Source: Pyrinomonadaceae bacterium (lineage in GTDB: Bacteria; Acidobacteriota; Blastocatellia; Pyrinomonadales; Pyrinomonadaceae). From it: DNA of 64,000 bases. The stretch spans positions 372,001 to 436,000 of the forward strand of contig DASUNM010000021.1 of assembly GCA_036277115.1 (NCBI GenBank). The letters are read 5' to 3'. Of the stretch, positions 7,219 to 39,568 are shown one piece after another. The first letter of the stretch is position 1; each line of letters begins with the position of its first letter. The notes beneath the pieces were generated by a model. It worked only from the letters and a program-made list of their open reading frames with translations. It had not been told where the DNA came from and did no database searches. The translations under genes and the position numbers were made by a program.

Positions 7219-8019
7219 TTAAGGCTGACCACCCAGTCTCTTTCGGTAATCTTCACCTTCAATCACGACAGTTTTGCACATCTCGTAAAGTCGCGACCGC
7301 AGCGGGACGCCGATGCGATCCTCGAGTATCTCGCCTTCCTTTTCGTTCTTGCGAGCATCAGAAAAGTTTGTGGTGAAGATCGTCAGGCGCTTTTCGTTGT
7401 AGCGGTTGTTGATGATTTGCATCATCGTGTCGCGTACCCAATCGGTCGGCTTGGACGCGCCGAGTTCATCCAGCACCAGAACTTCAGCATTAAAGACTGG
7501 TGCAAGCACAATCAACTCAGAATTCTGCGAGACGGGATTGTACGAGTCCTGTATCTGCCGCAGGAGCGCGCCAAACTGATAGAACAATCCTCGCGCCTGG
7601 TAACGCGAAATCAACTCGCGCAGAATCGCGACTGCCAAATGTGTTTTGCCGACGCCGACCGGACCCGTGAGCAGAAGTCCGCGGCCCGCCAGCGACAGGT
7701 AATCGTCGATGATGATCTGGGCTTCCATCTTGGCGGCCCATTTAGAGAGTTCATCATTCGCGGCCTCGTATCCCTGGATTGTGCAGTGCTGATACCGCGG
7801 CGGTATGCGCGCGGATTGCAGGAGCCGGTCGCGATTGTCGGGTGACTGGCATCGGCAACGGCGCGCGCCTTCGCCTGGGATTACTTCCATCCCGCTGCCG
7901 AAACAGTGTGGACAATCGGAGGTTGGCGGTGTCTCTGCCTCTGAGATCTGAGATCTGAGATCTGAGATCACCGGCGAAGCTGCGGATCCGTTGTGATTGC
8001 GATTTTCTGAAGAACTCAT
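7219..8019 (-). CDS. DnaC/DnaI-like replicative helicase loader ATPase
   Basis: AAA+ ATPase resembling DnaC/DnaI helicase loaders. An N-terminal zinc-binding region has CPHC and CRCQ, followed by Walker A GPVGVGKTHLA, Walker B LVLDELGA and sensor region IFTTNFSD. It ends normally at about 266 aa. The frame is open to 8073; ATG 8019 (MSSSENRNHN) is preferred because the extra 18 codons look unrelated, but no clear Shine-Dalgarno decides it. The N-terminal linker is encoded by four tandem copies of a 7-nt unit (7941-7968), a repeat inside the coding frame. It may act in helicase loading or be an IstB-like paralogue, but no transposase is adjacent. Confidence 0.82.
   Translation of the reverse strand: MSSSENRNHNGSAASPVISDLRSQISEAETPPTSDCPHCFGSGMEVIPGEGARRCRCQSPDNRDRLLQSARIPPRYQHCTIQGYEAANDELSKWAAKMEAQIIIDDYLSLAGRGLLLTGPVGVGKTHLAVAILRELISRYQARGLFYQFGALLRQIQDSYNPVSQNSELIVLAPVFNAEVLVLDELGASKPTDWVRDTMMQIINNRYNEKRLTIFTTNFSDARKNEKEGEILEDRIGVPLRSRLYEMCKTVVIEGEDYRKRLGGQP
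7941..7968. repeat. Heptamer tandem repeat inside the DnaC-like gene
   Basis: Four perfect copies of CTGAGAT. It encodes VISDLRSQIS in the N-terminal linker of the DnaC-like protein. Same 7-nt period as the arrays at 25.6, 46.2, 63.0 and 63.7 kb. Confidence 0.85.
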
Positions 8020-8108
8020 CGATGGAAATGATGGAACGGCGGCCAGATTACAACATTCGCTGAATGACGCCAATTGTACTACTTACGAACGGACGATTTA
8101 TGTTGGAA

Positions 8109-8316
8109 GACGGCGATCGAGGGGCCGAGGAAACCCGTCGCACGAATTCGCCATCTGAGAGATTGAGGTTATTCAGACGTGCCGCCAACGAGCCGCGAGT
8201 AACGCGGCCGGCTCTCACGGTCGCTATTACGAGAGAGCGGCACCCAATAACCCCGAACCCTCGGGGTTCCTCCTGTGATTTCGCCGCCCGGTGCGAACGA
8301 CCGGGCGGCCTTTTTC
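8109..8316 (+). ncRNA. Candidate structured RNA ending in an intrinsic terminator
   Basis: No protein-like frame. Pairings seen: GGTTATT (8167-8173) with AATAACC (8246-8252); GTGCCGC (8179-8185) with GCGGCAC (8237-8243); inner stem GCCGCG/CGCGGC (8192-8197 with 8203-8208); a 5' hairpin GACGGCGA/TCGCCATC (about 8110-8117 with 8148-8155, one mismatch). AACCCCGA/TCGGGGTT (8249-8256 with 8261-8268) shares bases with the first stem, so the two compete. A perfect terminator closes it. A weak promoter (TTGTAC-N17-TTTATG, 8074-8102) lies upstream. It could be a free-standing small RNA or a leader controlling ridA. I do not recognise a known class. Strand is set by the terminator. Confidence 0.5.
8283..8315 (+). 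terminator. Intrinsic terminator of the candidate RNA upstream of ridA
   Basis: Perfect 10-bp stem GCCGCCCGGT (8283-8292) with ACCGGGCGGC (8300-8309), 7-nt loop, then CTTTTT. Confidence 0.9.
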
Positions 8317-8419
8317 ATCCTCATTGAGAATTCGGATACGCCCACCGTTTCCGATTCCCGCCAGCTAATGGTAAAGTACCGGTTTTGTTTTGCGACCTAA
8401 ATCGCTGTCTGAGCTGACT

Positions 8420-8800
8420 GTGAAAGAGATTGTTGCAACAGAACGAGCGCCGCGGGCAATCGGCCCTTATTCGCAGGCGGTGCGGAGCGGAAACTTCCTG
8501 TTTGCGTCAGGCCAGATTCCGATAGACCCGGCGACGGGTGAATTCGTAGCCGGCGGCATCACTGAACAGACTGAGCAGGTGATGCGAAACGTCTCGGCGA
8601 TTCTGGAAGCCGCGGGCGCGAACTTGCAACAGGTTGTTAAAACCACGGTTTTTCTTGCGGATATGGACGACTTCACCGCGATGAACGAGGTCTATGGCCG
8701 CTTTTTCGGCGAAGATCCGCCGGCGCGCGCAACTGTTCAGGCAGCACGACTGCCGCGCGACGCGCGGGTTGAGATAGAAGCAATCGCAATTCTGGATTGA
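8420..8800 (+). CDS. ridA: RidA family reactive enamine/imine deaminase
   Basis: Cytosolic protein that hydrolyses reactive enamine/imine intermediates released by PLP enzymes such as threonine dehydratase. At 126 aa it matches the family: [22 protein letters not shown], and [13 protein letters not shown] with the conserved Arg that binds the imino-acid carboxylate, ending [10 protein letters not shown]. The frame opens at a TTG (8390), but family alignment favours GTG 8420 ([10 protein letters not shown]). It follows the terminator of the candidate RNA, so either a promoter lies at 8320-8400 or expression depends on read-through. Confidence 0.93.
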
Positions 8801-39274: not shown

Positions 39275-39568
39275 TCAAGAAGCGGAAGTCTCTTCGGCCG
39301 GTGCGGCTGGGGGTTCAGGAGCGGGCGCCGGCTGGTGACGAAGTTCGCCGGTCGAACGGCGCGCCTGAGAGATGGTGGAGATTGCATGCTTGAAAACTAG
39401 TTGCTCTTGCGTGCTGGTTTCCAAAATCAGGGAGAACTTGTCGAAGCTCTTGATGCGCCCTAAAAGTTTCGCGCCATTCACGAGATAGATCGTCACCGTC
39501 ATTTTCTCGCGGCGCGCGAGGTTCAGGAATCCATCCTGAATGTTTTGCGGAGCAGTTTTGGAATCCAT
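39275..39568 (-). CDS. hfq: RNA-binding protein Hfq
   Basis: Sm-like RNA chaperone for sRNA-mRNA pairing. Sm1 [20 protein letters not shown], then [19 protein letters not shown], and Sm2 with [10 protein letters not shown] (the KHAIST form). 97 aa including a Pro/Ala/Glu-rich tail. Two adjacent ATGs (39571, 39568) lie just after GGAGG; the second has the better spacing. A candidate promoter lies upstream, and miaA-hfq order is conserved as in Proteobacteria. Its presence fits sRNA regulation and the candidate RNA at 8.1 kb. Confidence 0.95.

Follow-up and report, generated by a model that had tools for sequence, protein, structure and literature searches.

Between a DnaC/IstB-like ATPase gene and ridA, a short interval is predicted to encode a structured RNA, and the question it raises is whether this RNA is a switch for the gene behind it or an independent small RNA. 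The interval lies in a 64,000-nucleotide stretch of DNA from a Pyrinomonadaceae bacterium, hereafter called the window. The initial annotation, made from the sequence of this stretch, had placed the RNA between divergent genes, had described two 7-bp helices, a terminator and a hairpin competing with the outer helix, and had left both readings standing. The two genes are indeed divergent, and both helices (P1 and P2), the 10-pair terminator with its CTTTTT tail and the competing hairpin are all present (Table 1); bases 8249–8252 are common to this hairpin and the outer helix, P1. Folding of positions 8100–8330 gives a predicted energy of −95.4 kcal/mol, compared with −82.0 ± 4.9 kcal/mol for dinucleotide shuffles (z −2.76), with 0 of 200 shuffles as good. 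The RNA is estimated at about 200 nt in the window and at about 130–180 nt as matched in relatives.

Table 1. Coordinates of the RNA, its parts and the adjoining genes in the window
Feature	Position	Strand	Basis or remark
DnaC/IstB-like ATPase gene, divergent neighbor	7219..8073	-	PF01695, E 1.3e-15; kept beside the RNA in the genus
RNA gene body (putative)	8123..8315	+	Full-length match to R1
GAAACC, a diverged form of GCAACC, the conserved 5' block	8130..8135	+	Alignment A6; GCAAC invariant in A5
CATCTGAG, conserved single-strand block	8152..8159	+	CATC invariant in A1 and A2
Helix P1, 5' strand GGTTATT	8167..8173	+	Conserved helix of the RNA family
Hairpin P2, GTGCCGC (8179–8185) with GCGGCAC (8237–8243)	8179..8243	+	Covariation in A3 and A5
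Helix P1, 3' strand AATAACC	8246..8252	+	Pairs with 8167–8173, 7 bp
Competing hairpin AACCCC/GGGGTT	8249..8268	+	Seen in the window alone; made by an insertion of about 9 bases near 8255–8263
TTCCTCCTGTGATT, conserved linker, with anti-Shine-Dalgarno core CCTCCT at 8269–8274	8267..8280	+	Proposed pairing seed
Intrinsic terminator, 10-bp stem 8283–8309 with a loop of 7, then CTTTTT	8283..8315	+	Stem conserved with compensatory changes
ridA, downstream neighbor in the window only	8420..8800 (ORF from 8390)	+	PF01042, E 4.2e-46

A DNA search of 60 relatives returned only the window's own copy and one short match, in genome G014, comprising the linker GGTTCCTCCTGTGATT and a terminator. Within the genus, a motif search located the linker beside the DnaC-like gene in three genomes, and a pattern search covering 99 genomes from the bacterial family located it in further ones, with a terminator behind it; several exact pattern matches lacking a terminator were excluded as chance or coding. 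Two covariance models were built with the window left out: R1 from nine sequences of a genus other than that of the window (g9), and R2 from thirteen sequences of other genera. R1 matched the window RNA over its full length (model positions 1–138; 35.3 bits), with E = 8.6e-8 in a search of the whole genome to which the window belongs, and R2 matched it at E 0.0025. Across 119 genomes of the bacterial family, R1 gave matches in 43 at E ≤ 0.01 and R2 in 40, with R2 recovering the group-one loci at the same places as R1. With weak fragments removed, the RNA is present in 40 of these 119 genomes and 17 of the 29 genera, at one copy each. The 40 member genomes are 39 of the 43 from R1 plus G027 from R2; left uncounted as weak, terminator-only or short were matches of R1 in G022, G130, G073 and G114 and its second match in G098, those of R2 in G084 and its second matches in G009 and G075, and one from the class search in G146. 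Opposite-strand matches consisting of the terminator palindrome alone were ignored. In genera g8 and g17 (L152, L153, L154 and L156), a CCTCC word and then a GCCCGGC terminator lie directly behind another gene; these weak R1 matches (E 0.002–0.009) could represent either a remote version of the RNA or a terminator that has nothing to do with it.

The family appears to be confined to this lineage in the genomes searched. Among 162 genomes of the class, R2 gave 38 matches at E ≤ 0.001, the sole one beyond the bacterial family being terminator-only, and R1 gave four matches in a sample of 396 genomes of the phylum drawn under stricter filters, all of them inside the bacterial family; outside it, these class and phylum searches yielded nothing above weak fragments. 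When GTDB species genomes were scanned for exact occurrences of the linker with the terminator, 29 places were found, of which 27 were accepted by eye as this RNA and two (L187 and L188) were judged chance; the accepted places are all in records titled Acidobacteriota, Pyrinomonadaceae or Blastocatellia. No Rfam family reached its gathering score in the RNA-bearing stretch of the window or in 10 homologue loci, and permissive scans of the window and relatives returned sub-threshold matches alone. By the searches made, the RNA family is previously undescribed. Comparison with these relatives identifies the stretch, with high confidence, as a member of a conserved family of predicted non-coding RNA genes read on the plus strand.

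The relatives share an order of elements: GCAACC, about 20 variable bases, CATC, P1, a variable P2, the linker CGGUUCCUCCUGUGAUU and a U-run terminator. P1, which in most aligned relatives is formed by GAGGUUA with UAACACUC, closes the P2 hairpin and is followed by the conserved linker UUCCUCCUGUGAUU and then the terminator. A second group of genera presents GCAAC, GCAUC-GAA, AGCAUAGC, the P2 hairpin, UUCUCCUGUGGUU and the terminator. P2 is the part of greatest length variation, and its inner hairpins are specific to the window. At the other extreme, the CUCCUGUG linker is nearly invariant across relatives, and the strongest sequence constraint falls on CUCCUGU(G), an anti-Shine-Dalgarno motif immediately 5' of the terminator. 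By eye, inverted or short tandem repeats were seen immediately 5' of the GCAAC block in six loci (L142, L143, L124, L139, L095 and L107), as if this boundary tolerates insertions. A reading on the opposite strand was considered and rejected: a ribosome-site-like word precedes an ATG on that strand in some relatives but is missing from others, and the U-run lies on the plus strand.

Compensatory changes in homologues, which the initial annotation had named as the test, occur in alignments A2, A3 and A5. In A3, 96.4% of cells are paired, compared with 30–44% in slid controls; in A2, the figure is 98.0% overall and 97.5% for P1 (15 relatives), and in A5, for P2 and the terminator, it is 98.7%. 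Taking related sequences as separate, a count that overstates the number of events, both sides changed in 7 of 28 pairs in A3, in one pair of P1 and three of the terminator in A2, and in 8 of 18 pairs (25 cells) in A5. The A2 figures for P1 were counted on hand-named columns and lean on a structure that these very sequences had first revealed; RNAalifold missed P1 on this mixed alignment because the variable hairpin is misaligned. Since P1 is mostly invariant, its covariation evidence is thin by itself, and P2 and the terminator carry more. Taken together, the alignments indicate that P1, P2 and the terminator are maintained by compensatory changes, P1 with this thinner support.

The competing hairpin has a different history. 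In the predicted ensemble it forms with probability 0.99, versus about 0.02 for P1, and forcing both 7-bp helices would cost a predicted 5.1 kcal/mol; the modeled competition between P1 and the hairpin is thus one-sided. The low predicted occupancy of P1 in the window would mean either that P1 has been lost there or that the energy model is wrong. Among five aligned genomes of the genus, an insertion of about nine bases, placed after the 3' strand of P1 and before the linker, is carried by the window alone and creates the hairpin. It is absent from the four other genomes, so that no mutually exclusive structure is conserved. As judged from this alignment, the hairpin is a change in the window genome alone and not a conserved switch: being an insertion private to the window, it leaves a conserved switch unsupported.

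Gene order bears on the same point. A synteny table was compiled from 40 loci in 40 genomes, with gene names taken from Pfam; four loci (L107, L123, L150 and L159) had no downstream assignment. The downstream gene is convergent in 35 of the 36 assignable loci, encoding an M16 peptidase in 25, a DinB-like protein in six and a phospholipase-B-like protein in four, and ridA in the window is the sole co-directional case. In three sister genomes, the phospholipase-B-like gene lies between the RNA and ridA; this gene is missing in the window, which accounts for the closeness of ridA to the RNA there. On the minus-strand side, a short tandem repeat of ctgagat units was observed at 7940–7969, within the 5' part of the DnaC-like reading frame. 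Convergent downstream genes leave no gene in cis to switch, and the arrangement argues for a stand-alone RNA gene that would not regulate ridA in cis, as opposed to a ridA leader. A ridA switch or attenuator that acts in cis and uses the competing hairpin as its expression platform would draw on a hairpin that is real and on the position of ridA, downstream and on the same strand in the window. However, that hairpin is private to the window, it has no base in common with the terminator stem (8249–8268 versus 8283–8309), and the convergent downstream genes elsewhere run against it; on synteny and the private hairpin we rejected this candidate, which we consider extremely improbable. Of the two original readings, the small RNA therefore stands, with its conservation and its own terminator, and the switch does not.

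Turning to the upstream side, a same-strand YCF48-like gene precedes the RNA in 24 of the 40 loci, a divergent gene does so in 11 (DUF885 in six and DnaC-like in five, the window included), and five loci have no assignment. In several genomes (L097, L098, L102 and L104), no more than about 10 nt separates the end of the YCF48-like gene from the RNA match, and a promoter lying outside this gene would have little space. Possibly, then, the RNA is derived from a 3'-UTR: processing would release it from a YCF48-like mRNA, of which it would be the conserved tail with the terminator, and in some lineages, among them the genus of the window, it would have become free of that gene. Against this origin, the 11 loci with a divergent upstream gene would require the RNA to have its own promoter, and in other loci the YCF48-like gene ends 100–500 nt or more away; we regard it as a serious but rather doubtful alternative. 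No sigma-70-like promoter passed a scan of 7950–8450, and the region upstream of the RNA shows no clear conservation in the five-genome alignment of the genus.

Several known RNAs resemble the family in part. In passages of two reports (PMC7143759, PMC10746234), the rhizobial anti-Shine-Dalgarno small RNAs NfeR1 (ar14), AbcR (ar15) and MmgR (ar8) are described as trans-encoded, with an unpaired CCUCC-type motif and hairpins, and Hfq binding or dependence is given for AbcR and MmgR. The layout of the window RNA is shared with these RNAs as far as they are portrayed in excerpts of the literature (PMC7143759, PMC10746234, PMC3927594), but they belong to a different phylum and carry the motif in one or several hairpin loops, whereas here it lies in the linker before the terminator. 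Among the sub-threshold Rfam matches on the window, MmgR/suhB (RF00519) scores highest, at 23.4 bits, well short of its cut-off of 41; on L119, it scores 14.2 bits against the same cut-off. RF02278, a toxic small RNA of Betaproteobacteria, resembles the relatives in having a CCUC-containing stretch followed directly by GAUU and a GCCCGG terminator, and its matches recur on them below the cut-off of 50 (best L119, 30.4 bits; window, 13.3 bits); unlike the window RNA, it spans 64 positions and lacks a P1/P2 domain. Expression of the RF02278 RNA was confirmed by Northern blot in Burkholderia, according to a passage of PMC4603805. SorX (RF02784) likewise has a CUCCCUGU-type linker before a GC-rich terminator, but it scores 21.1 bits on L119 versus a cut-off of 46.6, with several pairs broken in the alignment. 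Part of one survey (PMC2864571) presents Acido-1 (RF01686) and Acido-Lenti-1 (RF01687) as non-coding RNA candidates of Acidobacteria with no assigned cis role; neither gives a match to the window RNA, even with the limit relaxed to E ≤ 10. A sub-threshold Acido-Lenti-1 match (29.5 bits, cut-off 37) was seen at L119:1806–1844 on the plus strand, about 170 nt downstream of the RNA in G061.

What would such a stand-alone RNA do? It has some of the attributes of a trans-encoded small RNA, being conserved and non-coding in its homologues, with compensatory changes, its own terminator and no dependent co-directional gene, and we hold with moderate confidence that it acts in trans. We propose that it may do so on Shine-Dalgarno regions through CCUCCU, perhaps with Hfq, a reading to which we give even chances. 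As a plus-strand transcript ending at its own intrinsic terminator, the RNA would use CCUCCU and the bases on either side of it to pair with Shine-Dalgarno regions in one mRNA or a few, and this pairing of the linker would block ribosome binding. Hfq would perhaps hold the U-rich tail, and P1 and P2 could protect and present the linker.

The evidence on this anti-Shine-Dalgarno mechanism is divided. It is favored by the layout held in common with the rhizobial RNAs, by the sub-threshold resemblance of the 3' part to RF00519 and RF02278, and by the wide occurrence of hfq (109 of 118 genomes of the bacterial family, the window's own genome included). Within the window, an hfq gene lies at 39359–39541 on the minus strand, about 31 kb from the RNA. 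It is disfavored by the absence of a recurrent full-length target, by a seed with no special predicted exposure and by apparently low Shine-Dalgarno use in the window. No full linker complement precedes an ATG in any of the seven genomes of the genus, and among 118 genomes any such match occurs in 19, with no recurrent target; two of these matches are the RNA's own opposite strand. Over 34 of 35 sequences (L123, with a different motif, was excluded), the anti-Shine-Dalgarno hexamer has a mean predicted unpaired probability of 0.41, versus 0.38 for the rest, so its modeled exposure is not unusual. In the window, AGGAG-N4-10-ATG occurs six times against 8.0 expected, and an SD-like word precedes an early ATG in 5 of 48 long ORFs, compared with 2–4 in shifted controls; Shine-Dalgarno words before starts thus look no commoner than chance in the window, where start calls are crude. 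On the favorable side, 6 of 36 genomes, including two from the genus, have the canonical 16S anti-SD; its absence elsewhere may only reflect rRNA missing from the assembly.

The same lack of a recurrent full-length target and of special seed exposure would suit an RNA that binds a protein or the ribosome rather than mRNAs, with CUCCUGUG, GCAAC and CAUC as protein contacts; several separate near-invariant single-strand blocks also exceed what a short seed would need. However, the most conserved stretch is the anti-Shine-Dalgarno core beside the terminator, in the layout of anti-Shine-Dalgarno small RNAs, and neither 6S RNA nor any other protein-binding RNA family matches at gathering score, which makes this alternative unlikely in our view. 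6S RNA (RF00013) was itself rejected as a candidate: it gives no match at the site and sits elsewhere in the same genome, at G000:C11:204130 (65.5 bits).

Returning to pairing with Shine-Dalgarno regions, a more elaborate proposal, which we put forward as improbable, joins this function to the origin discussed above. The RNA could be a translational regulator that is specific to the lineage and present in single copy. It would have originated at the 3' end of a YCF48-like mRNA, as its tail, and later have been freed as its own gene in two lineages, with an anti-Shine-Dalgarno core gated by refolding. In many relatives, the GAGG strand of P1 would oppose CCUC, and in the window's species, the newly inserted hairpin would take that role.

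Searches of open-licence papers turned up no small RNA described for the lineage, of this kind or any other. As far as these searches reach, the RNA family is new; a small RNA with an intrinsic terminator is of a known kind. A large soil lineage, most of it uncultured, thereby gains an RNA family with strong support, and the mix of YCF48-linked and free-standing loci would allow the study of a 3'-end RNA becoming an independent gene. If the anti-Shine-Dalgarno reading is true, small RNAs of that type exist in Acidobacteriota too.
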